NCBI GenBank assembly: GCA_947625105.1
Contig: CANQMZ010000002.1
Coordinates: 1 to 40,855, forward strand
Length of the DNA stretch: 40,855 nt
DNA from: an uncultured Parasutterella sp.
GTDB taxonomy: Bacteria > Pseudomonadota > Gammaproteobacteria > Burkholderiales > Burkholderiaceae_F
Reading direction: 5' to 3'
The notes beneath the pieces were generated by a model. It was not told the DNA's origin, did not search any database, and saw only the letters and a program-made list of their open reading frames with translations. The number at the start of each line of letters is the position of its first letter. Positions within the stretch are counted from its first letter, which is position 1. Below, in pieces: positions 3,888 to 22,076 of this stretch. Both the position numbers and the translations under genes were made by a program.

Positions 3888-6566
3888 ATGCTATTTCTAG
3901 ATCTGTATAGTCGTTTGCGGTGCAACCTCAGGGATGCGTCCAGGTTTCTACGGCATAACTGCCGTGGACAGTGGAGCTATTGGATCAATTTTTTGTTTTT
4001 AATGTTGGCATGGCTTTTACTGCCGCTTGAAAACAGGTTTTTTAAAAAACTAATCAAAAACAAAGAGTTTTATTTCCCTCAAATCAATTTCCAGGCCCTA
4101 AGACCACTCGATGGGATAAGGATGTTCATTCAGGTTTTGTACCTGTTGATTTTTTCTGTTAGTAAGGCTTCTGCCGCCTCCAGGGTTGGAAAAAAACGCG
4201 CAAAAAGATTCTTTGTCTTTGCTTGGTTCACCAAATTCCGACTGAAGTTGATCAATAAGCTTAGAAGCCAATCTCAATTGCTTTCTAAGCAGTTGCTTTC
4301 AGAAAAGGCAACTGGCCACGCTTCAGGACCCAAAATCAGCATTTTTAAAAAGATCATTATTGGGTTGCTTCTTGCTATAGGGTTGGTGCTTTACGTCGTT
4401 TGCGTCACTCAACCGTTCAGTTTGGAAGAGCAGATCATATTTCTGATGATTCTTTGGCTAAGCGCCCTGCTGCTTTTCCAGGCCCAAACAAGACTGACGC
4501 TGTTGATGTTGATGGTGATCTCGATTATTGTGTCTTCCCGTTACATGTGGTGGCGCTATAACGAGACCCTCAATCCTAATAGTTATCTTTCAGTCATCTT
4601 CACATGGATGTTGGTTTTGGCTGAAACCTACGCTTTTGTGGTCATGCTCTTGGGGTATTTTCAGGTTTGTTGGGTCTTAGATAGGAAGGCCCGGTCAATG
4701 CCTCCGGACCCGACCACCTGGCCGCATGTGGATATTTTTATCCCGACATACAATGAGCCGCTTGATGTGGTCAAACCTACGGTTTATGCGGCCCTTTGCC
4801 TAGATTGGCCTAAAGAGAAGCTTCATGTCCATGTGTTAGACGATGGGAGCAGAAAGGAATTTGAGGATTTTTCCAGAGAAATCGGCGCCAATTACATCAA
4901 AAGGGAAATCCACAACCACGCTAAAGCAGGCAATATCAACCATGCGATGGGAGTCACTCATGGTGAATTTATTGCGATTTTTGACTGTGACCATGTGCCG
5001 GTAAGATCTTTTTTGCAGAAGACGATGGGTTGGTTTTTGAAGGATGAGAAGATCGCTCTCGTGCAAACGCCTCACCATTTTTATTCTCAAGATCCTTTTG
5101 AGAAAAATCTTCACTTTAAGGAAAATGTTCCAAACGAGAATTCCTTATTTCATGACTTTATCCAAAAGGGTAACGACACATGGAACGCCACGATGTTTTG
5201 TGGCTCTTGTGCTGTAATAAGGCGTAAGGCTTTGGAAGAGGTTGGAGGTATTGCGGTCGAGACGGTGACAGAGGATGCTCATACTTCATTGAAATTAAAT
5301 CGCAAGGGCTGGTCTTCTGCATTTTTGAGTACTCCGCTTTCTGCGGGATTAAGCACGGAGACGCTAGCCGCGCATATCGGTCAGAGGATCCGTTGGGCAA
5401 GAGGAATGGTTCAGATCTTCCGATTGGATAATCCTCTTTTTGGCAAAGGCTTGAGTATTCCGCAACGGCTTTGCTTTCTTAATGCCATGATCCATTTTTT
5501 CCACGGCTTGCCAAGGATCATCTTCTTGATAGCGCCTTTGCCATTTCTCTTCGCCAATATCTATGTCATTTACGCCAGTGCGGTGGCTATATTCGTTTAT
5601 CTGATACCCCATATGGTTCATTCAACCATGACCACTTATGCGATTCATCGTGGTTATCGGTTCCCTTTTATTAGTGCGCTTTATGAAACCATTCTGTCTT
5701 GGTACATTTTTGTGCCTACCTTGGTTGCTATTTTTGCTCCTCATAAAGGGAAATTTAACGTCACCGCCAAGGGTGGAGTTATTGATAGAGCCTACCTGGA
5801 TTGGTCGATTACCAAGCCGTATTTGTGGTTATTAATTCTGAACGTGGCCGGATTCGTCATTGGTCTGTACAGAATGATTGGCTCTAGCCCCTACGAGATG
5901 GTCATGTTAGGTATCAATGTGGGATGGATAGCCTATAACCTTTTAATCTTGTTTGCCGCAATCGCAGTTTCGGTGGAAAGCGTCCAACAAAGGAAATTCC
6001 CCCGTGTTTCCTTTACAGAAAGCGTGAGATTAAAGATTGGAGAGGAGCTGGTTAATGGTACTCTGACAGCCTTTTCCCAGAAGGATTGTTTGGTTCAAAT
6101 CAAGCCGGCGGATTTGGAACTAATTCCTGAAGACCGAAGTGTTGAATTGATTTTTGGGTCAAAATCAAAAGAGGTGCGTTTTAATTGCACCGTGACAACC
6201 ATGTTTTCCAACGGGATTTTGGAGCTGCTCGTTCACCAAGAAACTTTAGCTAAAGAAATGCAATTTACTGCTTGCACTTTTGGTACCCCGGAGATTTGGA
6301 TACAAAAGCAAAGCAAAGTTAGAGGCTACGGAATGCTCGATGGTCTAGTCGCTTTGCTGCGGATGGCTAGGCTTGGAGTAAGTGCCTTCATTGAGTATGC
6401 TCCTCGTAACACTAGTTTGTTATTCCGTATCTTCGCAGGTTCGCTCGGGTGGACGATGAGTTTCCTTCCTCGCTATCCGACACTGAAAGTGAACAAATCA
6501 GGCAATTGCTTTGAGCCTCAGGGCGTCAGATATCCTCTTTTCCGACCTAATCGGAAAATACTCTGA
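3888..6566 (+). CDS. bcsA: Cellulose synthase catalytic subunit with PilZ domain
   Basis: 892 aa; LDDGSR, FDCDHVP, VTEDAHTS, QRIRWARGMVQIFRLDNPL, FNVTAKGG gating loop; RKFPR (RxxxR) start of PilZ. Confidence 0.97.
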   Translation: MLFLDLYSRLRCNLRDASRFLRHNCRGQWSYWINFLFLMLAWLLLPLENRFFKKLIKNKEFYFPQINFQALRPLDGIRMFIQVLYLLIFSVSKASAASRVGKKRAKRFFVFAWFTKFRLKLINKLRSQSQLLSKQLLSEKATGHASGPKISIFKKIIIGLLLAIGLVLYVVCVTQPFSLEEQIIFLMILWLSALLLFQAQTRLTLLMLMVISIIVSSRYMWWRYNETLNPNSYLSVIFTWMLVLAETYAFVVMLLGYFQVCWVLDRKARSMPPDPTTWPHVDIFIPTYNEPLDVVKPTVYAALCLDWPKEKLHVHVLDDGSRKEFEDFSREIGANYIKREIHNHAKAGNINHAMGVTHGEFIAIFDCDHVPVRSFLQKTMGWFLKDEKIALVQTPHHFYSQDPFEKNLHFKENVPNENSLFHDFIQKGNDTWNATMFCGSCAVIRRKALEEVGGIAVETVTEDAHTSLKLNRKGWSSAFLSTPLSAGLSTETLAAHIGQRIRWARGMVQIFRLDNPLFGKGLSIPQRLCFLNAMIHFFHGLPRIIFLIAPLPFLFANIYVIYASAVAIFVYLIPHMVHSTMTTYAIHRGYRFPFISALYETILSWYIFVPTLVAIFAPHKGKFNVTAKGGVIDRAYLDWSITKPYLWLLILNVAGFVIGLYRMIGSSPYEMVMLGINVGWIAYNLLILFAAIAVSVESVQQRKFPRVSFTESVRLKIGEELVNGTLTAFSQKDCLVQIKPADLELIPEDRSVELIFGSKSKEVRFNCTVTTMFSNGILELLVHQETLAKEMQFTACTFGTPEIWIQKQSKVRGYGMLDGLVALLRMARLGVSAFIEYAPRNTSLLFRIFAGSLGWTMSFLPRYPTLKVNKSGNCFEPQGVRYPLFRPNRKIL

Positions 6567-6642
6567 ATGCGGATAAGTAATTAAAATAAGGAAATTAGTC
6601 TGATTTTTTAGAAGTTAGAACCTTTTTCGAAAGAAATTTTTA

Positions 6643-8913
6643 ATGGAAATGGCGACCAGAAAAAAGCTGACAAATAACTTGAGAATCTCGTTATCAACAG
6701 CCCTTATTTGTTGTTTATCTCTTTGTTGTCTGAATCTTGGTGCCCAAGAGACAAAGTACTCAAGAGATGTTATCCCGAACTACCGCACGGATGTCATTCC
6801 TGTTATCAAGAAAGATACGCCGCTCTTTAACTACTCTACTGAGGGCGCGATTGAACAGATCAAGATGACGGGTATCTACAACGAGAGAAGTTTTCGGTTT
6901 TATTCAACCAAAAATGAAGTCATTTCCAAAGCTTCGGTGACTGTTCGTTATACCCCCTCTCCGGCACTGATCCCACAGCAAAGCCAACTCAATGTTTATT
7001 TGAATGGTCAACTGCAGAAAAGTTTGCCGATAACTAAGGAACAGTTGGGTAAGCAAGTATCTGAGACCGTTGAATTTAATCCTAAGCAGATCGAGGATTC
7101 AAACAGGATTACCTTGGAGTTCGTTGGACAATACACAACGGTATGCGGCACTATTGCCAATCCCGCCCTTTGGCTTACAGTGGATAAATCAAGTTATCTC
7201 ACTTTGAATACCCAAAAGATCAGACTGGCCAACGATTTATCGCTTTTTCCAATTCCCTTTATAAATACTCAGAATCCCTCTTCAACCTCTCTTCCGATCG
7301 TTTTTGCTAATAAACCGAGCGATTTGATGAAGACTGCGGCTGCGGTATTTGCTTCCATGGGCGGGGTTAAAGCCCAGTGGCGCGGTATCGAATACCCCGT
7401 CTACATTAACGAGCAGCCCTCTGAACAGAACTACGTGGTCTTCGCGACTAATTTGGACCGACCCGAATTTCTTAAAAACCTGCCTAAAGTCCAGGCTCCG
7501 ACCATATCCATCATTGATGCGCCCAACAGCCTTTATGCCAAGATTTTAGTGATTTCAGGTCGAGACGAGGCCGATCTGATCACGGCAACTCGATGGCTTG
7601 CTACAGCCGACAAAGGCCTGGCTGGTGACACGGTCAGCATTGTCGGATTCAAAGCCCTGCCTGACAGGCTTCCTTACGATGCGCCCGACTGGATCAGAAC
7701 TGATAAAAAGGTAAGCTTTGATCAAATTGCCAAGTACAAGGGGCAATTGACGAGCTCGGGTTTCCATCCGGCTCCCATCAAGCTGGAATTGAAGTTGCCG
7801 CCCGATCTCTTCATGGTCAATCAAAGCAATGTGAATCTAGATCTGCGCTATCGCTACACCAAGCCGACAACGGGCGAGCCGGCACAGATGAGATTCCTCC
7901 TGAATGATCACTTGGTTGAATCTTATGATCTGAGTCCTAAGAGTACGAGTAGCTCCTTTAATTCCCAGTTCTCTTTGTTAAACGGATTAGCCAACCTGTG
8001 GAATGGGACGTCAATCCCTAGCGACATGCTTTCCCCGGAAAACATGCTCACTTTTGACTTTCAGTACGGATTGGCTGTCGCAGGTGGTTCTCCTGAAAAC
8101 TGCAAATCAGTGGCGCTTATTCCCAACCAAGTTGAGGTTGATCCCAATTCTACGATTGATTTCAGTGGCTTCTACCACTTCGCGAAACTTCCCGATTTGA
8201 AACTGTTTACGGTAAGTGGTTTCCCATTTACTAAGTATGCAGACTTGTCACAGACTCTTGTGCTGATTGAGGAAAATGCCCCGGCAAACGTTTTATCAAC
8301 CCTGTTTACCGCCTTGGGTCGCCTGTCTGCGCAAACTGGCTACCCGGCGACCAAAGTGACTGTCGCCTCTTCCGTCAGCAAGGATAATGCTAAGGACAAG
8401 GATATTTTGGTCATTGCTGAGACAGACAGAAAAATCGGTACGATGGATAAGGCCGATCCTCTCATTATTCTCGATGCGTTGAGGCAGAAATTAAAGAGTA
8501 CGTTTTCTCCGGATGCTGACAAGGTGGCCTACAGCACTTACGCTGAAGATACGGGCATTGCGGCTATGGTGCAGTATGAGTCCCCATATAGCTCGGAAAG
8601 GTCAATAGTCGGCCTGTTCGGTGACGGCCAGGATGGAAGTTTCTTGCTCAATAAGCGCCTGATGAATCCGGGAGATTTAAAGCAGATCGGCGGAGCGGTG
8701 GCGATTATTAAACCGAACGCGGAACCGGCTAGCTATATGGTCGGAGAGACGTATTTTTCTGGTTCCCTGCCTTGGCATCAAAGAATTTGGTACTCGTTGC
8801 TTGATCAACCTTTGCTGTTGGTGCTCTTCTCTCTGATCTGCGCGTTGCTGATTGCCGGTGGTGTCTTCTACATCATGCACTCGGTTATACGGTTGCGTAG
8901 CCGTCGTCACTAG
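6643..8913 (+). CDS. bcsB: Cellulose synthase periplasmic regulatory subunit BcsB
   Basis: 756 aa with signal peptide, C-terminal TM helix, position between bcsA and bcsZ, BcsB-like jelly-roll/ferredoxin-type sequence. Confidence 0.93.
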   Translation: MEMATRKKLTNNLRISLSTALICCLSLCCLNLGAQETKYSRDVIPNYRTDVIPVIKKDTPLFNYSTEGAIEQIKMTGIYNERSFRFYSTKNEVISKASVTVRYTPSPALIPQQSQLNVYLNGQLQKSLPITKEQLGKQVSETVEFNPKQIEDSNRITLEFVGQYTTVCGTIANPALWLTVDKSSYLTLNTQKIRLANDLSLFPIPFINTQNPSSTSLPIVFANKPSDLMKTAAAVFASMGGVKAQWRGIEYPVYINEQPSEQNYVVFATNLDRPEFLKNLPKVQAPTISIIDAPNSLYAKILVISGRDEADLITATRWLATADKGLAGDTVSIVGFKALPDRLPYDAPDWIRTDKKVSFDQIAKYKGQLTSSGFHPAPIKLELKLPPDLFMVNQSNVNLDLRYRYTKPTTGEPAQMRFLLNDHLVESYDLSPKSTSSSFNSQFSLLNGLANLWNGTSIPSDMLSPENMLTFDFQYGLAVAGGSPENCKSVALIPNQVEVDPNSTIDFSGFYHFAKLPDLKLFTVSGFPFTKYADLSQTLVLIEENAPANVLSTLFTALGRLSAQTGYPATKVTVASSVSKDNAKDKDILVIAETDRKIGTMDKADPLIILDALRQKLKSTFSPDADKVAYSTYAEDTGIAAMVQYESPYSSERSIVGLFGDGQDGSFLLNKRLMNPGDLKQIGGAVAIIKPNAEPASYMVGETYFSGSLPWHQRIWYSLLDQPLLLVLFSLICALLIAGGVFYIMHSVIRLRSRRH

Positions 8914-8922
8914 GAGTTAGTC

Positions 8923-10023
8923 ATGAAAGTAAAGCAATTCTTGATTTTTCTCTTTTGTGCCCTCCTCAGCACGAGCGTTTTTGCTTGGGACCTTTGGGAC
9001 GAATTCAAGGCGGTCAATGTGACCGAAGAGGGGAGAGTGGTTGATTACTCGGATACAAAACTCATCACCACTTCTGAAGGTCAATCCTACGGTATGTTCT
9101 TTGCACTGGTGGCCAATGACCGTCAGTCTTTTGACAAGATACTTCAGTGGTCGGAAAAGAATCTCGGAGAAGATCAACCTGCATGGCTGTGGGGAATCCC
9201 CGACGGTAAAAAAGACGGGCAGGGAAAAATCCTTGACACTAACAATGCCACGGATGCCGATATGTGGATCGCTTACAGTCTTCTTGAGGCGGCCCGCATT
9301 TGGCACGAACCAAAATACATGAGTTTGGCTAACAAATATTTGGCAAAACTCAAAGAGATGGTTCGTGATATACCGACGATAGGGAAGGTGATTCTTCCCG
9401 GAAGAGTGGGTTTTGAAGATAAGGGCATTATCACTCTTAACCCAAGCTACTATCCGCCTCACATCTTGAGAAGGTTTGCTGAGCATGATTCCTATTGGTT
9501 GCCTGTGCTCGAGGGATCGATAAATGCCATGATCAGATCGGCTCCCACTGGAGTTGCCCCGGACTGGTCCAAATTTAATGCCGAGGGTGTTCTTATCGAC
9601 GAAAACAAAATGATCGGTAGCTACAACGCCATCAGAACCTATCTGTGGGCTTCGATTCTCTCGCCGAAAGACCAAAACTATCAGGTACTTGCCAAATTGT
9701 ATGCCCCGATGATCGGAATCGTAAGGCAAACGAACATACCTCCCGAGGAAGTGAACATTTCGGATATGACCGTTAGCACGAGGGATGTTAATGCCTTCGG
9801 TGCATGTTTTTTACCATATCTCAGTAACGAGAAAAGCGGTGGAATTATCCGCACGGTGCTGACCGCGAGCAAGATGAAAGGTGATAACTACTACCGCAAC
9901 GTGTTGACGCTGTTTGGCCTAGGCTTCGACTACAAGCACTACGCCTTTAATGAAAAAGGCGAGTTGTTCTTCCCGAAAGTCGACTTGATGGTCCAGGGCG
10001 ATACACCCAAAGCCAATGAATAG
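8923..10023 (+). CDS. bcsZ: Periplasmic endo-1,4-beta-glucanase, GH8
   Basis: Signal peptide; TTSEGQSYGMFFALVANDR, NATDADMWIAYSLLEA, YLWA, VLTLFGLGFD motifs; AGGAG SD. Confidence 0.95.
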   Translation: MKVKQFLIFLFCALLSTSVFAWDLWDEFKAVNVTEEGRVVDYSDTKLITTSEGQSYGMFFALVANDRQSFDKILQWSEKNLGEDQPAWLWGIPDGKKDGQGKILDTNNATDADMWIAYSLLEAARIWHEPKYMSLANKYLAKLKEMVRDIPTIGKVILPGRVGFEDKGIITLNPSYYPPHILRRFAEHDSYWLPVLEGSINAMIRSAPTGVAPDWSKFNAEGVLIDENKMIGSYNAIRTYLWASILSPKDQNYQVLAKLYAPMIGIVRQTNIPPEEVNISDMTVSTRDVNAFGACFLPYLSNEKSGGIIRTVLTASKMKGDNYYRNVLTLFGLGFDYKHYAFNEKGELFFPKVDLMVQGDTPKANE

Positions 10024-10033
10024 GAGCGGCTAA

Positions 10034-11674
10034 ATGGCAGAAACAAGAAGGAGATCAATCAAGTGGACGGGACTTGGTCTCTGGAATGTTTTTTTCATTT
10101 CTGAGTTTTTGCTTTCTAGCTTTTCCTACCTGTCGCTCAATTTTCAATACAACATCATCCTGATAGCCTTTGTTCTTTTTCCTGTCGGGAATCGTTATTT
10201 GCATTGGCTAAGGAATTTCATTGCCATTATCGCTGCGGTTGCTCTTGTCTACAACGAGAGTTGGCTCCCCGGGATTGACAGCATTCGCGGCAATTTCCAC
10301 AATCTTGTGGCGATGGATACCAGCTATTTGTTGGAGTCGGTCTACAACTTCATCAATTGGCAGATGGTGGGGATCGTACTGGCATTGATTATTTTCTATT
10401 ACGCCCTCAGGGATTACATTCGCGTTACCACCTTCACCATCGCTTATTTTCTGATACTTTTTTGCGCTCCGCTGTGGCAGCCTTGGTTTGAACAAACGCC
10501 CCAGGTGCAAACGGCTCAGGTGGTTGAGCCCGTCCACCAAGTTGCCGAACAACAACCCGCTCAAAAGAGCTCTGACTTGATACCGCAAAACGAACCGGCC
10601 AACTCCAAGAATTTAAGCGAGTGGCTGAGGGCTTTTTATTTTTCCGAAAAGGAAAGGCGTGCGGTTTGGCCTGAGCAACTCGGTAAGGAAGATACCCCGT
10701 TCGATATTCTGTTGCTGAACATCTGCTCTTTGTCAAATGATGATATGGCGGCCGCAGGCTTGGATAAGCACCAGGTTTTATCCAAATTTGATATTGCTTT
10801 CGATAATTTCAATTCCGCGACGTCCTATTCAGGTCCCGCTGCTCTAAGGCTATTGAAGTCGGCTTGCGGGCAACCATCGCACGACGATCTCTATGAGGCT
10901 AGAAATCCTGACTGCGAAATAATGAACCGTTTAGCCAGACTCGGATACAACCAATACGTTTTTATGGACCACAGCGGTCAATACGATAATTTTTATCAGA
11001 GTCTCAGGCATCTTGCCGGTCTGAGTCCTCAGTTAAAACCAATGACTTATCCCAAGGCCTACGACTCTTTTGATGAAGAACCGATTGGGAATACGAAGGC
11101 TGTTTTTCAAGACTGGGAAAAGAGCCTGCAAGCCAACAAAGATCAAAGGACCGTTACATTTATAAATCTCATCGCTTTGCATGATGGCAACCGCTTTGCC
11201 GGAAAGAGGAGGCTGGCCGCTTTCAAACCCCGAGCCCAAACCATGCTGGATGATTTGGACGCCCTTATTTCGGATGTGCAGAAGACGGGTAGAAAAGTGA
11301 TGTTGGTGGTCGTGCCGGAACATGGTGCGGCGGAAAGAGGCGACAAGGTCCAAGTTGCTCACCTTAGGGATATTCCCTCTCCCGCGATCACCAAGGTACC
11401 TGTTTTAATCAAGTTTATCGGCCTCACACCGAAGGGTGCTCCTGTCCAGGTTAAGGAACCCACGAGCTATTTGGCGCTCAGCACCCTAATCGGAAGAGTT
11501 TTACAGACAAACTATTTTGCTAAGCCGGAAGGTGAGATCCCATTGACAGACCTCGTTAAGGATCTTCCGCAGACGTATCCGGTTTCTGAAAACGCCAATG
11601 CCGTTGTCCTCAAGTACCAAGATAAGGTCTTCGTCAAGATGGACAAGGGAGATTGGAGAGAATACGCAAAATAG
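10034..11674 (+). CDS. bcsG: Cellulose phosphoethanolamine transferase BcsG
   Basis: N-terminal TM bundle (GLWNVFFISEF...NESWLPGIDSI...FINWQMVG) and catalytic region NICSLS / SATSYSGPAALRLL / VVPEHGA / RDIPSPAIT recognised as BcsG. Confidence 0.95.
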   Translation: MAETRRRSIKWTGLGLWNVFFISEFLLSSFSYLSLNFQYNIILIAFVLFPVGNRYLHWLRNFIAIIAAVALVYNESWLPGIDSIRGNFHNLVAMDTSYLLESVYNFINWQMVGIVLALIIFYYALRDYIRVTTFTIAYFLILFCAPLWQPWFEQTPQVQTAQVVEPVHQVAEQQPAQKSSDLIPQNEPANSKNLSEWLRAFYFSEKERRAVWPEQLGKEDTPFDILLLNICSLSNDDMAAAGLDKHQVLSKFDIAFDNFNSATSYSGPAALRLLKSACGQPSHDDLYEARNPDCEIMNRLARLGYNQYVFMDHSGQYDNFYQSLRHLAGLSPQLKPMTYPKAYDSFDEEPIGNTKAVFQDWEKSLQANKDQRTVTFINLIALHDGNRFAGKRRLAAFKPRAQTMLDDLDALISDVQKTGRKVMLVVVPEHGAAERGDKVQVAHLRDIPSPAITKVPVLIKFIGLTPKGAPVQVKEPTSYLALSTLIGRVLQTNYFAKPEGEIPLTDLVKDLPQTYPVSENANAVVLKYQDKVFVKMDKGDWREYAK

Positions 11675-11695: not shown

Positions 11696-12910
11696 TTGTC
11701 AAGTCTTAACGAGACGCCTAAGGGCTCAAGAGTTCATATAGGTATTTTTGGAAGAAGAAATGCCGGTAAGTCGAGTCTGATCAATCGATTGACAAAACAA
11801 AGCATCGCGCTAGTCAGTGAGGTGGCTGGAACGACTACCGATCCGGTGTTTAAAGCAATGGAGCTCTTGCCGGTGGGCCCGGTCATGTTGGTGGACACCG
11901 CCGGCATTGACGATGTTGGTGATTTGGGAAAACTTCGAATTGCTAAGACCCGACAGGTGATGGGGCAGATTGATATTGCTCTGCTCGTGATAGATGCTAC
12001 TGGCGAGTATTCCGAGTTCGAGGCAACTTTGCTCAAAGAGCTTCATGCTCTCGGAGTTGAGACTATTGTGGTACTCAATAAAGCAGATATCGCCGCAAAT
12101 ATCGAGATCAAGGCCACAGAAATCAAAAATCGTGCAAACGAACCGGTCTACATCGTCAGTGCCGAGAAAGACACTGGTTTTGACGATTTGAGGGCAAGGA
12201 TTGTTGAGTTGGCCCCTAGGGCCTTTGATGATGCCCCGCTGTTAAGAGATTTGCTACGCCCCGGAGATACGGTAGTTTTTTGCGTTCCTATTGATACCGC
12301 CGCACCGAAAGGAAGATTGATCCTTCCTCAGGTCCAGGCAATAAGGGATACGCTAGACGCAGGTGCCAACGCTCTTGTCGTAAAAGAAAATCAGTTATCA
12401 GGGCAACTGGCAAACCTAAAAAATCCGCCTTCTTTGGTTGTTACCGACAGCCAAGTTTTTAAGGCAGCTAATGAGATGACGCCGCCAAATATTCCGCTTA
12501 CATCTTTTTCGATATTGATGGCAAGGAAAAAGGGGGATCTAAGCGCATTGGTTGATGGCGCAAAAGCGATCGAGCGTCTCAAGCCGGGAGACAAGGTGTT
12601 AATTGCCGAGGCCTGTACTCACCAATGTCAGGCCGAAGATATCGGTCGGGTAAAAATTCCGAATTGGCTTCAAAAATATGTAGGTGGAAAGTTGGACTTT
12701 GATTGGTACACCGGAGATTCTTTTCCCGAAGAGGTTAGCCAGTACAAGTTGGTTATTCATTGCGGCGCATGCATGATTAATCGCAGAGCCATGCTGTGGC
12801 GGCAGAGGAAATGTTTGGCTAGCGGTGTCCCGATGGTCAACTATGGGGTTTTGATAGCCAAACTTCATGGCATATTGCCTCGAGTATTGTCTCCGCTGAA
12901 CAAAAGTTGA
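11696..12910 (+). CDS. hydF: [FeFe]-hydrogenase H-cluster maturation GTPase HydF (TTG start)
   Basis: G1 GRRNAGKSS, DTAGIDDVG, NKAD; C-terminal CTHQC...HCGACM (CxH...HCxxC Fe-S ligand set). Confidence 0.92.
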   Translation: MSSLNETPKGSRVHIGIFGRRNAGKSSLINRLTKQSIALVSEVAGTTTDPVFKAMELLPVGPVMLVDTAGIDDVGDLGKLRIAKTRQVMGQIDIALLVIDATGEYSEFEATLLKELHALGVETIVVLNKADIAANIEIKATEIKNRANEPVYIVSAEKDTGFDDLRARIVELAPRAFDDAPLLRDLLRPGDTVVFCVPIDTAAPKGRLILPQVQAIRDTLDAGANALVVKENQLSGQLANLKNPPSLVVTDSQVFKAANEMTPPNIPLTSFSILMARKKGDLSALVDGAKAIERLKPGDKVLIAEACTHQCQAEDIGRVKIPNWLQKYVGGKLDFDWYTGDSFPEEVSQYKLVIHCGACMINRRAMLWRQRKCLASGVPMVNYGVLIAKLHGILPRVLSPLNKS

Positions 12911-14593: not shown

Positions 14594-14719
14594 AAAATGA
14601 AATTCTTAAAGTCTGCGAATTTTAATGCACTGGTAGGGTAGGAATTCTCCCTGATACAAGCAGATTCAGAAAAAGTGTGTTTCCAGCTTTTAAAATTCGG
14701 GAAACCCTTGGAGAAACAA

Positions 14720-16012
14720 ATGTCGAAATCGTATTTTCCTTCATGGACATTAAAGACTGAAGGCGTCATTGCTCCCGATGAAAGACTGCCGGCTCATCAG
14801 ACCTTTGCCATGGGTCTGCAGCATGTGGTGATCATGTTTGGATCAACGGTTCTCGCTCCGTTAATCATGGGGCTTGATCCTAACGTGGCGATCCTTATGA
14901 GCGGCATTGGTACCTTGATTTTTTTCTTTATGGTCGGAGGCCATGTCCCGAGTTATTTGGGTTCTAGTTTTGCCTTTATTGGCGTGGTAATCGCGGCAAC
15001 CGGCTACAGCGGTTCAGGGCCTAACCCGAACATTCCGATTGCGATGGGAGGCGTGATCGCTTGCGGCATGGTTTACGCTTTCATCGGTTTAATTGTTATG
15101 GTCGTTGGCGTCCGTTGGATTGAAAAACTGATGCCTCCAATAGTTACCGGCTCCATTGTGATGACAATAGGTCTGAATCTGGCTCCTGTGGCCATCAAGG
15201 GTATGGGCACAACACAATTTGAACAGTGGTACGCCTCAGTTGCCGTTCTGATCATCGGCTTTATGGCAGTCTACCTCAGGGGCTTTTTGCAAAAGATGCT
15301 GATTCTTGTAGGCATTGTGGTTTCCTACATTCTCTATTGGTTGCTTACCAATATAATGGGACTCGGAAAGCCTATTGATTTTCGTCCTTTGTTTGATGCT
15401 TCCTGGATTGGAGTACCTCAGTTTTCGGCGCCGGTTTTCCAATGGGAAGCGATCATTCTCATTGTTCCTGTTGTGGTCATCCTCGTTGCTGAAAATCTAG
15501 GTCATATCAAGGCAGTCAACATCATGACACACAGAAATTTGGATCCCTATCTCGGTCGTTCCTTCTTTGGCGATGGTATCGCTACGATTGTGGCCGGCTG
15601 TTTTGGTGGCCCTGGTGTTACGACATACGGCGAGAACATTGGCGTGATGGCCGCAACCAAGGTTTATTCCACGCTGATTTTTCCGGTAGCTGCTTTCTTC
15701 GCTATTTGCCTTAGTTTTTCTCCGAAATTCGGTGCGTTGATTCAGACGATTCCCGGTCCGTTGTTAGGCGCTGTCTCGGTTGTGGTTTTTGGATTCATTG
15801 CCGCCGCAGGCGTCCGAATCATGATCGATAATCGACTGGACTTATCTACCAGCCGAAATTTAATCATCGTGGCGGTAACCTTGATCGTGGGTGCCGGAGA
15901 TTTCAGCTTAAAAGTTGGCAGTTTTTCTTTAGGTGGAATAGGAACTGCCACATTGGCCGCGATCCTCTTAAATCTAATCATGGGAAAGGGAAGTACTAGA
16001 TCTCAGGAATGA
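14720..16012 (+). CDS. NCS2-family uracil/xanthine permease (UraA/RutG-like); ORF track begins at 14675 but ATG 14720 follows a GGAG
   Basis: AMGLQHVVIMFGSTVLAPLIMG, LAENLGHIKA, GGPGVTTYGENIGVMAATK. Confidence 0.9.
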   Translation: MSKSYFPSWTLKTEGVIAPDERLPAHQTFAMGLQHVVIMFGSTVLAPLIMGLDPNVAILMSGIGTLIFFFMVGGHVPSYLGSSFAFIGVVIAATGYSGSGPNPNIPIAMGGVIACGMVYAFIGLIVMVVGVRWIEKLMPPIVTGSIVMTIGLNLAPVAIKGMGTTQFEQWYASVAVLIIGFMAVYLRGFLQKMLILVGIVVSYILYWLLTNIMGLGKPIDFRPLFDASWIGVPQFSAPVFQWEAIILIVPVVVILVAENLGHIKAVNIMTHRNLDPYLGRSFFGDGIATIVAGCFGGPGVTTYGENIGVMAATKVYSTLIFPVAAFFAICLSFSPKFGALIQTIPGPLLGAVSVVVFGFIAAAGVRIMIDNRLDLSTSRNLIIVAVTLIVGAGDFSLKVGSFSLGGIGTATLAAILLNLIMGKGSTRSQE

Positions 16013-16221: not shown

Positions 16222-19110
16222 GTGTCAGGTGACTCAAAGATGAGAACATTGACTCTAAAACAACAAAAGGCTGCTGCTAAGGAATTTGCTGATAAGTGGC
16301 TTGAGATAAAACCGAAAGAAATTGAATCAGACCAGAAATTTTGGGAAGAACTGTTGGAAAAGGTTTTTGGGCTTGAACGTCCTTACGAATACCTGCAATT
16401 TCAACATACTGTAAAACTTGGAGGGAAGAAAACAGGACGACCGAATATTTTGGTTGGAAAAGATGTTGTTAGGGTGCTCGTGGAGCAGAAAAGTTATAAC
16501 GTTGACTTAAAAGCTGAGGAAAGAGGTGGGCGCCTTACACCTTATGAGCAGGCAAAAAGTTATTGGAACAACTACGGTGGAAGCCAAAAGCCGAGGTGGA
16601 TTGTCACTTGTAATTTTCATGAATTTCACATTTATGACATGGATTCAGCTTCCGATCCAGAACCGACAATCGTTTATTTAAAAAACTTTGAGCGTGAGTA
16701 CAAGTATCTTTCCTTTTTGGTCAATCCTAAAAATGACAATATTAGAAAAGAGCATGAACTCTCTGTAGAGGCAGGAAAAATTGTCGCAAAACTCTACGAA
16801 ACCCTACTTCATCTTTATGTGGATGACGAAAAAAGAACCATGCTCGCCAATAGGTTAATCGTAAGATTAGTATTTTGCCTGTATTCAGAAGATGCTGGAC
16901 TTTTTCACAGTAACGATGCTTTTTACCGATATTTAAAGGATGTTGCCCCTGATAGATTCCGATCGGCTATTAAGGAGTTATTTAGGATCCTTAACACTAA
17001 GGAGGAAGATAGAGATCCAAACGAAGACCCCAAACTTTCGCAATTTCCCTATGTAGATGGGGGACTTTTTAAAAATGCGGAAGAGGGGATATCGAATTTT
17101 GATAAAAAAGCTGTAGACATACTATTAAACGAATGTAGTCGTGGGTTTTGTTGGAGCGATATAAATCCCACCATTTTCGGGGCCGTTTTCGAAAGTACAT
17201 TAAACACTGAAACTCAAAAGAAAGGAGGGATGTACTACACGAGCATAGAAAATATTCATAAAGTTATTGATCCTCTCTTTTTAGACGGATTCAAAGCAAG
17301 ATTCCAAAGAGCACGTGCCCTGAAAAAGCACTCTGAGAGGAAGAAAGCTCTTGAAGCGTTGCGTGAAGATATGGCAAGCCATGTCTTCCTAGATCCAGCT
17401 TGTGGAAGTGGGAATTTTCTGACCGAAACATATCTTTGCTTAAGGAAAATTGAAAACGATATTCTGCGAATTTTGGAGCCGTACCAAATAAAAATGATGC
17501 TCGATAATCCAGTCAAAATAGATATTTCTAACTTCTATGGTATAGAAATAAATGATTTTGCCTGTGCTGTCGCAAGAACGGCTTTGTGGATTGCGGACTC
17601 ACAGATGAAGAAGGAAACTCTAGATATTGTCAGCACAGAAAATTTAGATTTCTTTCCGTTAACCACATCGGCTCATATTCTAGAAGCTGATGCCTTGAAG
17701 ACAGATTGGAGTGAATTTGTTCCATTTACGAAAGGGAAAGCGTATATCGTAGGCAATCCACCTTTCATTGGTGCTTCCAATATGGAACCTGATCAGAGAA
17801 ATACTGTGGCAAAACTTTTTCACGAGAAAAGCTACAGTCACTCCTTGGATTATGTGTGCGGTTGGTACAAAAAAGCTTCAGAAATGATAAAAATTCACTA
17901 TTGCGAAGCGGCGTTTGTTTCCACTAATTCTATTACCCAGGGAGAACAGGTATATCCGCTGTGGTCAGAACTGTTTGGAGATGAGATAAAAATAAATTTT
18001 GCTCATCGGACGTTTAAATGGGAAAATGGGATCAAGGGAAGTAACAGTGCGGCGGTCTACTGTGTGGTGATAGGTATTGGTCCAATGGATAGGAATGATA
18101 AAAAATTGTTTATCTATAAGACACCTACCTCTGCGCCCGAAATAAAATGCGTGGATTACCTCAGCCCTTATCTGTGTGAACTTAGTGCTGATACAGCTAA
18201 GGTATTGGTCCAATCCCGTGGCAAATCTCTTTTTAGCCCATTAAAAACAACAATGGGAAATAAGCCGGCTGACGATGGAAATTTCATTTTGAGTGAAGAG
18301 CAAAAGAACGCCATAGAAGGCGAAACACCTGCCATTAAGCCATATATCAGACGTTATGTTGGCGCAAAAGATTTTCTACATGCGAGCAAACAGGAGACAC
18401 GTTATTGTCTGTGGCTCAAGGACGCTCCTGTCGGTCTTATAGAAAGTAACAAAGAGGTAAAGAGAAGGATTCGTAACATAAGGCAATTCCGCCTTGATTC
18501 CGAAGCGGAACCAACTCAAAAAAAAGCCGAATTTCCAATGGAATTCTTCTCTAATCCCCAGAGGGAACGGGATTTTATCGCAATCCCTAGGGTGTCCTCC
18601 GAAAACCGCAAGTACATACCGATGGCTTTTGAGAAGAGCGATGTCATAGCAGCTGATTCATTGTCCATCATAGCAAATGGCGACCTTTTTATTTTCGGCT
18701 TATTAAACTCTTCAGTCCATATGGTATGGGTGCGGGCTATAGCAGGCCGGTTAAAGGGAGATTACCGTTACTCCGGCCATCTCGTATTTAATAACTTTCC
18801 TATTCCGATGGATGCCACGGAAGAACAAAAGAAAAAAATCAAAGAAACAGCGGAAAAAATTCTGAGGGCGAGAAAAACGGAAATGGCCAAGCAAAAAGTA
18901 GATCTAGCTAGTCTGTACGATGTAGATCTGATGCCTAAGAATCTCAAATTGGCGCACAAGGCTAATGACAAGGCAGTTCTTCGCCTTTATGGCTTGGATC
19001 TTCGGTCATCCGATGCAAAGATTTTTGAGACATTACTACGGGCGTACAAGTCGCGATTGGAAGAGATACAGCAAGGTCGCAAAAAGAAAAGCAAGAAACC
19101 AACCATCTAG
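16222..19110 (+). CDS. Single-chain type IIG-like restriction enzyme/DNA adenine methyltransferase (MmeI/YeeA-like architecture); GTG 16222 or ATG 16240
   Basis: N-terminal ...VLVEQKS nuclease-like motif; motif I FLDPACGSGNFLTETY; motif IV IVGNPPFIGA; C-terminal TRD-like region. Confidence 0.88.
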   Translation: MSGDSKMRTLTLKQQKAAAKEFADKWLEIKPKEIESDQKFWEELLEKVFGLERPYEYLQFQHTVKLGGKKTGRPNILVGKDVVRVLVEQKSYNVDLKAEERGGRLTPYEQAKSYWNNYGGSQKPRWIVTCNFHEFHIYDMDSASDPEPTIVYLKNFEREYKYLSFLVNPKNDNIRKEHELSVEAGKIVAKLYETLLHLYVDDEKRTMLANRLIVRLVFCLYSEDAGLFHSNDAFYRYLKDVAPDRFRSAIKELFRILNTKEEDRDPNEDPKLSQFPYVDGGLFKNAEEGISNFDKKAVDILLNECSRGFCWSDINPTIFGAVFESTLNTETQKKGGMYYTSIENIHKVIDPLFLDGFKARFQRARALKKHSERKKALEALREDMASHVFLDPACGSGNFLTETYLCLRKIENDILRILEPYQIKMMLDNPVKIDISNFYGIEINDFACAVARTALWIADSQMKKETLDIVSTENLDFFPLTTSAHILEADALKTDWSEFVPFTKGKAYIVGNPPFIGASNMEPDQRNTVAKLFHEKSYSHSLDYVCGWYKKASEMIKIHYCEAAFVSTNSITQGEQVYPLWSELFGDEIKINFAHRTFKWENGIKGSNSAAVYCVVIGIGPMDRNDKKLFIYKTPTSAPEIKCVDYLSPYLCELSADTAKVLVQSRGKSLFSPLKTTMGNKPADDGNFILSEEQKNAIEGETPAIKPYIRRYVGAKDFLHASKQETRYCLWLKDAPVGLIESNKEVKRRIRNIRQFRLDSEAEPTQKKAEFPMEFFSNPQRERDFIAIPRVSSENRKYIPMAFEKSDVIAADSLSIIANGDLFIFGLLNSSVHMVWVRAIAGRLKGDYRYSGHLVFNNFPIPMDATEEQKKKIKETAEKILRARKTEMAKQKVDLASLYDVDLMPKNLKLAHKANDKAVLRLYGLDLRSSDAKIFETLLRAYKSRLEEIQQGRKKKSKKPTI

Positions 19111-19315: not shown

Positions 19316-20782
19316 CTAATCGAACATTGAGGCCAGGCAGCAAAACAGTTGCCATCTAGGATCAAAGCTTTTTCCTTGGCTGTCTTCCCAAGTTTCCATA
19401 AACTTGTCTAGGTCTTCCTGAGGCCCATCTAGTAGCACTTCTCCAAGGTAAGCTCCATACAGATAAAGTCCTCCCTCGTAGTCGGGATCTGCCTCCTCAA
19501 AATAGATGGGCATGACTTTGGTGTTATGCAAATTTTTTGAGATCCATTCCAAAATGTCTTTTCTTCCCGGAATCTCCTCTATGTTGCAGGATTCAGGATT
19601 ATCCCTATCTAAGGCAAAATCAAAACGTAACCAGTACATATCCCGGTCCGGATTTTCTTTATGCCAAACCAAAGAGCTTATGGCATCTTTAGGCAGAAGA
19701 GAACGGATTTTTTTCTGATCCTGTCTGCTCTCTTCATCGGGATCGATCTTGACTTTGGACTCAATTGGGCGAACTCTGTTAAAAGCAATACGATCCAAAC
19801 GGTCCAAATCAGCTTCATCGTCATTGAGGATCCTTCTGTCAAAGATAGTATCAAGCGGAGCTATAAGAGTCGCATTTTGGAGTGCCTCGTTGATCATGTG
19901 AACTCTGTCCCTTTCGTTGTTGGTGTAGGTACGATAAGGAATAATCTTTAAAGTACTTTCAGGCAATAAACTGATAGTTACTACACCTTTCCAACGCTCG
20001 GCAATCCAGTCCATTAATCTCACAAGCTGCGGATTTAAAAATACATTTTGAGATATCCACAGTTCGGTCTGAGTCTTTCTCAATTCGTTAAAACAAAAGT
20101 AATTACTCACTTCGTCGATGAACTTGTCCACGTCGCCCGCTTTGCCAGTGATCCGGTAAGCAAAATGACCGTTATCGTAGGTTCGTATTTGGTAGATGAT
20201 TCTATTAATTTTTTTGATCAACACCAAAGCCAAACTCTTAAAGGGGTAATAACGCTTGTCTATCATCAGTTCGGCAATTGCACACCACCTTCTGTAGAGC
20301 TTGTCAAAGCACATATTAGGCAGTGGCCGTTCGTCTTGAATTTCGAGAGTGTCATAAAACGTGTCGCACTCAGCTATACAACGGATAATTCTGTAGATTT
20401 GAGGAAATTTGTCAGGGTTCGGTTCCTTCAAGCTCTTAATGCTGTAGAACTTTGAACATCGTTTAGCTAAAGTGACAACATAGCGATCTACTCCTTTCCA
20501 GTTGGTTGATTTTGGGAGATCTGCGAGTAAAGTGGCAGCTACCTGAGTTTGTGTTCCTTCGTTTTGAAAAAGCATCAATTCTGCTGCTCGCAAACGAGTT
20601 GCCATATCGGGTTGTGGATTTTTGGCAAGCCACGATATCGCTTTGAGAATTGGTCCATCCAAGTTGGCTAAAGGTTCATGAGGAGGCGACACCCTGATTC
20701 CGCCGTTCAATAGTTCAGTACCGAGCGCAATAGGACGAAAGAATCGTCGATAGGCTTTTTTGAATAGATAAAAGCGATTCAT
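19316..20782 (-). CDS. Hypothetical protein, 488 aa, no family recognised
   Basis: Long ORF with natural-looking composition, AAGGA upstream of ATG, not antisense to any recognisable gene. Confidence 0.8.
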   Translation of the reverse strand: MNRFYLFKKAYRRFFRPIALGTELLNGGIRVSPPHEPLANLDGPILKAISWLAKNPQPDMATRLRAAELMLFQNEGTQTQVAATLLADLPKSTNWKGVDRYVVTLAKRCSKFYSIKSLKEPNPDKFPQIYRIIRCIAECDTFYDTLEIQDERPLPNMCFDKLYRRWCAIAELMIDKRYYPFKSLALVLIKKINRIIYQIRTYDNGHFAYRITGKAGDVDKFIDEVSNYFCFNELRKTQTELWISQNVFLNPQLVRLMDWIAERWKGVVTISLLPESTLKIIPYRTYTNNERDRVHMINEALQNATLIAPLDTIFDRRILNDDEADLDRLDRIAFNRVRPIESKVKIDPDEESRQDQKKIRSLLPKDAISSLVWHKENPDRDMYWLRFDFALDRDNPESCNIEEIPGRKDILEWISKNLHNTKVMPIYFEEADPDYEGGLYLYGAYLGEVLLDGPQEDLDKFMETWEDSQGKSFDPRWQLFCCLASMFD

Positions 20783-20830
20783 AATCGTGTAAATCCTTAT
20801 AGCTGAATTTCCAAAAGATAACTTCAGAAA

Positions 20831-20860
20831 TTCGTTTTTTATCGAGTAATCAAAAACGAA
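20831..20860 (-). promoter_or_regulatory. 9-bp inverted repeat upstream of the 488-aa gene
   Basis: TTCGTTTTT (20831-20839) / AAAAACGAA (20852-20860). Confidence 0.5.
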
Positions 20861-20884
20861 ATCTCGTATTTCTAGCGGTACTCG

Positions 20885-20939
20885 TTTCAGAACGTTTTTG
20901 GGCTTGGCTGGGGAGAAATCCCTTAACCCTATGGTTTTT
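20885..20939. repeat. Direct repeat copy B, split by ~33 bp
   Basis: tttcagaacgtt at 20885-20896 and tatggttttt at 20930-20939. Confidence 0.55.
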
Positions 20940-21173
20940 TTGATGGATCTACTTTTCGCCGCTGTTCAACGCAATTTGACTGTTAGAACAATCGGTTTTC
21001 AAATTTTGACCTTTAGAGCGGTAGGTTTAATTTTTAAGTGAGATCGAATTTTGGTTTCACTTTTTGAAGGCGGTTGTTCAATCCACAATTTACTGGCATT
21101 TTCCGCTAATAAAAAGAAGTTCAACGATTAAAATAGCCGAATTATTTGATAAGTAGAAATTCTCACAAACACT

Positions 21174-22076
21174 ATGATTACCTTTCAAGAAGTTATCCTG
21201 CGCCTTCAGGAGTACTGGAACAAGCAAGGTTGTGCGTTATTGCAACCTATTGATGTTGAAGTTGGCGCAGGAACCTCGCATACGGCTACTTTTTTAAGGG
21301 CCTTAGGGCCCGAACCTTGGCGGGCAGCCTACGTCCAACCTTCTAGACGACCAAAGGATGCGCGATACGGAGAAAATCCAAATCGTCTTCACCAGCATCA
21401 CCAGTTTCAGGTGGTACTCAAACCGGCGCCGACCGATATTGTTGATCGCTATCTTGAGTCCCTGCGCGCTTTAGGTATTGATACGGAAGTCAACGATATC
21501 CGCTTGGTAGAAGACAACTGGGAAAATCCTACGCTAGGGGCCTGGGGTCTTGGTTGGGAAATTTGGATGAATGGCATGGAAATAACTCAATTTACCTATT
21601 TCCAGCAGGTGGGAGGTCTTGAATGTAAGCCGATTACCGGAGAGATTACCTACGGTCTAGAGCGCTTGACCATGTACTTGCAACACTGCGATAACGTTTT
21701 TGATCTTGTCTATACCCGTTGGCATGACGCCCGTGGCGAGCACAAGCTTACTTATGGCGATGTGTTCCATCAGAACGAAGTTGAACAGAGCCACTATAAC
21801 TTTGAGGCATCAGATCCCGAAAAACTTCTGAAACAGTTCGATTACTTTGAAGGGGAAGCCAAGCGTCTGATGGACTTGAATTTGGCTTTGCCTGCTTATG
21901 AAATGGTTTTAAAAGCAGGTCATACCTTCAACTTGTTGGATGCGCGGGGAGCGATCAGCGTCACCGAAAGAGCTGCCTATATCAGCCGCATCCGGCAAAT
22001 CTCAAGGGCTGTCGCCCAAAGTTACTATGACTCAAGAGAAAGACTTGGGTTCCCAATGTGTCAAGACAAGCGATAA
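21174..22076 (+). CDS. glyQ: Glycyl-tRNA synthetase alpha subunit
   Basis: [47 protein letters not shown]. Confidence 0.98.

Follow-up and report, generated by a model that had tools for sequence, protein, structure and literature searches.

A rare orphan protein of an undescribed family, with a mobile C-terminal domain, in a low-GC islet of an uncultured Parasutterella

The locus described here raises the question whether a long reading frame of no recognisable family, lying next to a restriction-methylase gene in the genome of an uncultured Parasutterella sp., encodes a protein at all, and whether this protein serves the enzyme beside it or belongs to something not yet described. The whole stretch of DNA analysed, 40,855 nucleotides long, is called the window in what follows, and the protein is called P0001. 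A first-pass annotation had described a long minus-strand frame with a Shine-Dalgarno sequence and about 390 bp of non-coding DNA upstream. Both statements were confirmed: the start codon is an ATG at 20782, it is followed by a frame of 488 codons and preceded by AAGGA, and the distance from this ATG (20782) to glyQ (21174) is 391 bp. Promoter-like sites in that gap and terminator patterns were found at no more than chance level. The chance of 488 open codons at 41% GC is about 4e-14, and because such a frame is improbable and a homologue aligns with residues 16-480 of its product, the frame is coding. Computation from the sequence gave no transmembrane stretch in P0001.

Searches of Pfam, NCBIfam, PADLOC, PHROGs and the PDB with the whole protein returned no family up to an E value of 1, which bears out the earlier remark that no domain can be recognised, and P0001 had no similarity to the restriction-modification (R-M) families in the scanned libraries. 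No relatives were found in plasmids (DNA and protein) or phages (protein), nor in genome contigs when the single P0001 sequence was the query, while the same contigs searched with an alignment instead gave five loci of its C-terminal domain (C-domain). The one full-length homologue found (30% identity over residues 16-480, E 3e-62) is located in JAFTYR010000043.1, a Burkholderiaceae metagenome-assembled genome (MAG) from roe deer colon, here G016. Its neighbours are a transporter operon on one side and a gene for a transaldolase-like protein on the other, with no R-M gene beside it, and a free 133-aa copy of the C-domain is situated directly upstream of it, in tandem. C-domain carriers make up 3 of the 67 genomes of the family, and P0001 is absent from both genus-mates. 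Since only two full-length members are known, the N-terminal part offers no usable conservation signal. There is strong support for the conclusion that P0001 is a rare accessory orphan whose family is undescribed. The earlier view that the protein is something undescribed is upheld; both P0001 and its C-domain fall outside all of the scanned libraries.

The surroundings of the gene were also as first described, P0001 and the type IIG gene being situated between a permease, now seen to be uraA-like, and glyQ (Table 1). GC content over about 16.0-21.4 kb is 38-45%, compared with 45-49% around it. In both genus-mates prfC adjoins the permease and lnt stands directly before glyQ. Here the permease and glyQ border the islet on either side, and lnt is located on another contig. 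The islet therefore marks the re-joining of two blocks, prfC-uraA and lnt-glyQ, that are intact in the genus-mates, and synteny is broken on both of its sides. No long flanking direct repeats, tRNA genes or Rfam RNAs were found at the islet, and no recombinase was seen among the islet's reading frames. The GC drop, the absence from genus-mates, the three carriers in the family and the synteny break together agree with the suggestion that the gene is accessory cargo. Neither a housekeeping family nor a lack of R-M co-occurrence joined to species-wide conservation, which the first-pass annotation had named as speaking against that suggestion, was fully observed. Elsewhere in the window a cellulose-synthase-like (bcs) cluster was assigned by eye at 3888-11674, with genes for a glycosyltransferase, a cyclic-di-GMP-binding-like subunit, an endoglucanase-like protein and a membrane BcsG-like protein, likewise judged by eye. 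It is followed at 11696-12910 by a GTPase which, from the look of its sequence, we take to resemble HydF, the [FeFe]-hydrogenase maturase.

Table 1. Location in the window of the orphan gene, the predicted parts of its product, and the islet's other genes and borders.
Feature	Position	Strand	Remarks
uraA-like permease, left border	14675..16012	+	prfC-uraA block kept in both genus-mates
MmeI-type (type IIG/IIL) restriction-methylase, convergent with P0001, apparently intact	16222..19110	+	
Orphan protein gene P0001	19316..20782	-	488 aa; homologue alignment residues 16-480
Mobile C-terminal domain, residues ~365-488	19319..19690	-	also free ~135-aa proteins
Middle domain, residues ~206-273, predicted beta-alpha-beta-beta-alpha-beta (ferredoxin-like)	19964..20167	-	AF2
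Basic all-helical N-terminal domain, residues ~44-205	20168..20653	-	AF2 pLDDT about 46-76
Non-coding gap between P0001 and divergent glyQ	20783..21173	.	391 bp; no Rfam match
glyQ, right border	21174..22076	+	lnt precedes glyQ in both genus-mates, not here

The AF2 model of full-length P0001 is weak (pLDDT 62), and the layout given in Table 1 should be read with this in mind. The N-terminal half, noted earlier as helical, is helical in the model as well, at low confidence, and residues ~44-205 carry a net charge of +9. The acidic character ascribed to the C-terminal end is confirmed by a net charge of -15 over residues 367-488. Modelled alone, the C-domain gives an alpha/beta plait (pLDDT 84.7, pTM 0.79), which is its likely fold class as judged from the model, though no family is assigned. 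Foldseek, one of the checks proposed at the outset, found no match below E 0.001 for the full model, nor for the C-domain when it was compared with the PDB and with viral models; the C-domain matches obtained are mostly general alpha/beta-plait proteins with E 0.036 or worse and TM-scores of at most about 0.55. That the middle plait is a diverged copy of the C-domain was considered and is unsupported, there being no profile similarity to the C-domain branch. A profile of the N-terminal part had no match in the PDB; run over 399 genomes of the order, it picked up nothing beyond chance similarities within UvrC and GlyS. The helix pattern of this part and an A-x-L-L-A-D-L motif recall, by eye and as a lead only, the HD region of RelA/SpoT (RSH) proteins, so that the N-terminal half could be read as a degenerate RSH hydrolase domain and P0001 as an alarmone-related protein. 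However, hhalign against 27 RSH proteins gave a probability of 0.7%, with the wrong segment aligned and no better than shuffled controls, and P0001 has no match to Pfam HD_4. This reading, which we consider extremely unlikely, was rejected.

It is the C-domain that connects P0001 with other proteins. P0001 directly matches free-standing C-domain proteins with E values of 4.8e-13 and 8.9e-10, and tblastn matches go down to 1e-13. Free C-domain proteins of about 130-140 aa are present in Duodenibacillus (L013), in a MAG labelled Gastranaerophilales (L012) and in a gammaproteobacterial MAG recovered from the jejunum of dairy cattle (L014); Limnohabitans (L015) has a form with a C-terminal extension. 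The copy in L012 is nearly identical to that of Duodenibacillus, and this contig is possibly mis-binned. On a Pantoea plasmid the C-domain lies inside a TraG/ICE-type conjugation cluster, and conjugation-like genes are situated near the Duodenibacillus gene. Members of this close group share a W-E-x3-G-K-S-x-D-P-R-like signature. A wider branch (L018, L019, L021-L026) is joined to the close group with an hhalign probability of 97.7% (E 1.7e-12), and its relatives include genes on the IMG/VR virus contigs L077-L080. Two of these relatives, L077 5962-6441 and L078 6004-6525, are on contigs with PiT-like permease or BRCT/GIY-YIG-like genes. Searched against the family libraries, the C-domain relatives gave chance-level matches only. 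The C-domain belongs to an undescribed mobile family, found as free proteins of about 135 aa, on mobile elements and virus contigs, and in WYL/sirtuin accessory clusters; in several groups of proteobacteria its relatives occupy chromosomal islets as well as plasmids, conjugative elements and virus contigs. In Duodenibacillus a 262-aa protein (L006:8833-9621) is encoded directly after the free C-domain gene, and on a Megamonas plasmid a relative of that protein overlaps a HipA-domain gene, which suggests a toxin-antitoxin setting.

The gene company of these relatives shows a recurrent pattern. In 4 of 9 genomes a WYL gene lies within 7 kb of the C-domain gene, where 0.07 would be expected (P about 3e-7, a value overstated because few genomes were counted, the limit of 7 kb was chosen post hoc and random placement is assumed though accessory genes cluster). 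WYL regulators stand beside relatives in L015, L025, L027, L072, L073 and L074, and WYL neighbours were also found in two plasmids. A sirtuin gene is directly adjacent to the relative in L074 and L075 (in L075 the small free protein is at 5932-6387 and the sirtuin at 6387-7199), and in L073 one (75-1067; G202:C15, a 620-aa open frame) is about 5 kb away. The latter sirtuin is preceded in its frame by a WCX tail, the frame also matches WYL, and it is apparently fused to the end of a WYL/WCX regulator. A chance estimate for the sirtuin neighbours is rougher still than that for WYL, as it was built on assumed gene numbers. Other neighbours are an RNase_T exonuclease in L072 (with a sub-threshold match in L071), HD, GmrSD and cREC genes in L015, PP2C in L073, and DUF2779 in L072 (133-1083) and L073 (6973-8511), one of the two with a weak Cas4-like match. 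Relatives are also situated near restriction endonuclease, HD and WYL genes, or near helicase and PLD-nuclease genes. This WYL/sirtuin company belongs to free-standing, mostly wider-branch relatives, and the window gene has no such neighbours: the window gave no match to WYL, such genes of its genome (G000) being on contigs C31 and C37, and no sirtuin-like gene was seen on reading the window's reading frames. The earlier idea that P0001 is possibly related to mobile elements or defence has indirect support only, which comes from the company of the free-standing C-domain relatives and not from that of the window gene. What is new here is the C-domain family and its association with WYL and sirtuin genes, and these recurrent neighbours mark the C-domain as a candidate component of conflict systems of the NAD+/ADP-ribose or RNA-end type.

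The neighbouring enzyme was considered as a partner. The gene at 16222-19110 (+) has all five MmeI Pfam domains, matches the PADLOC IIG model at E 2e-298, and contains the motifs DPACGSG at 391, NPPF at 512 and an N-terminal EQKSY at 88. The genome of the window has a second strong MmeI-type methylase match (G000:C174:2201-3004). P0001 could be imagined as a partner or controller of the type IIG/IIL enzyme, being adjacent to and convergent with its gene, and an MmeI enzyme is likewise encoded in G016, where the full-length homologue is located. However, homologue and MmeI gene are on different contigs in G016, a genome with a free-standing C-domain (G036) has no MmeI gene, and the convergent arrangement excludes an operon. 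It is known that MmeI acts as a single polypeptide, which also argues against a partner or controller. Because the full-length homologue has no neighbouring R-M gene, coupling of P0001 to the methylase is unsupported. A conserved linkage with the R-M gene was thus not observed, and the reading which tied P0001 to the methylase is probably wrong. A link of P0001 to an R-M enzyme is unlikely, and its role as partner or controller of this particular one very unlikely.

Our best explanation, put forward tentatively, is that P0001 is an accessory protein, soluble and obtained by horizontal transfer, which works through binding, as an antitoxin, immunity protein or regulator, in conflict islands; its mechanism we can only infer. 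An islet of roughly 5 kb, with the MmeI-type R-M gene, would have been gained horizontally at a chromosomal re-joining point. The soluble product is predicted to begin with a basic and helical N-terminal domain, followed by a small alpha/beta plait and by the C-domain, which is acidic and itself an alpha/beta plait; the C-domain would be a binding module engaging a conflict-system protein or a nucleotide ligand. The N-terminal part may engage a second target or act as a platform for oligomerisation, and the carrier would be protected or regulated by stoichiometric binding, not by DNA cutting or modification. Speaking against a binding role, no toxin or partner gene was found to recur next to the full-length protein. 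P0001 might instead be a single-gene anti-phage defence protein with the N-terminal half as effector and the C-domain as sensor or partner-binding part. The shared islet with an R-M gene would fit this, as would C-domain relatives near GmrSD with WYL, restriction endonuclease/HD/WYL, and helicase with PLD-nuclease genes, but PADLOC has no match for P0001 or the C-domain relatives, P0001 lacks a recognisable effector fold, and wider-branch members on virus contigs fit counter-defence equally, which makes this account rather unlikely.

An enzymatic C-domain is possible in view of the polar residues conserved in the close group (around W-E-x3-G-K-S-x-D-P-R); to our knowledge these match no known catalytic set. 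An enzyme or nucleotide-binding accessory of an NAD+/ADP-ribose and RNA-end-processing network (sirtuin, cREC, WYL, HD, RNase T), with P0001 as a multidomain offshoot, is rather unlikely: WYL genes are companions of many kinds of accessory system, and sirtuin, WYL, cREC, PP2C, RNase_T and HD neighbours are all missing from the window. Such genes are nevertheless found beside wider-branch or free C-domain members, and sirtuin-cREC and WYL-regulated systems of like kind are described in PMC9503650. Distinctly unlikely is the version in which the C-domain would be a new and widely exchanged module in a conflict system with WYL and sirtuin links, carried also by viruses for counter-defence, and P0001 its fused stand-alone version; the module may then be, for example, a sirtuin-neutralising antitoxin or a sensor of ADP-ribose or nucleotides.

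Several known systems resemble parts of this picture. The beta-alpha-beta-beta-alpha-beta order of the C-domain model is common to the ferredoxin-like RRM, PII, S6 and acylphosphatase proteins, from which it differs in that its Foldseek matches are all weak (E 0.036 or worse) and place it in no family. Of the MmeI-type methylases it is the neighbouring gene that is a full-domain member, P0001 being separate from it. Sirtuin, cREC and WYL genes take part in NAD+/ADP-ribose and RNA-repair conflict systems, according to PMC9503650, and C-domain relatives likewise go with sirtuin, WYL, cREC, HD and exonuclease genes; however, the window gene lacks these neighbours and the C-domain is not among the families named in the portion of that paper considered here. 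For the preferred binding role, which is putative, a comparison can be drawn with polyimmunity loci and proteins (PMC3482391). P0001 differs from them in that no known Imm domain was detected in it and no toxin gene is linked to it. The likeness is drawn because in G016 a free C-domain copy stands beside the fused one, as in polyimmunity a free small domain stands beside a larger protein carrying the same domain, and the C-domain is, in a similar manner, scattered, mobile and without a fixed toxin partner.
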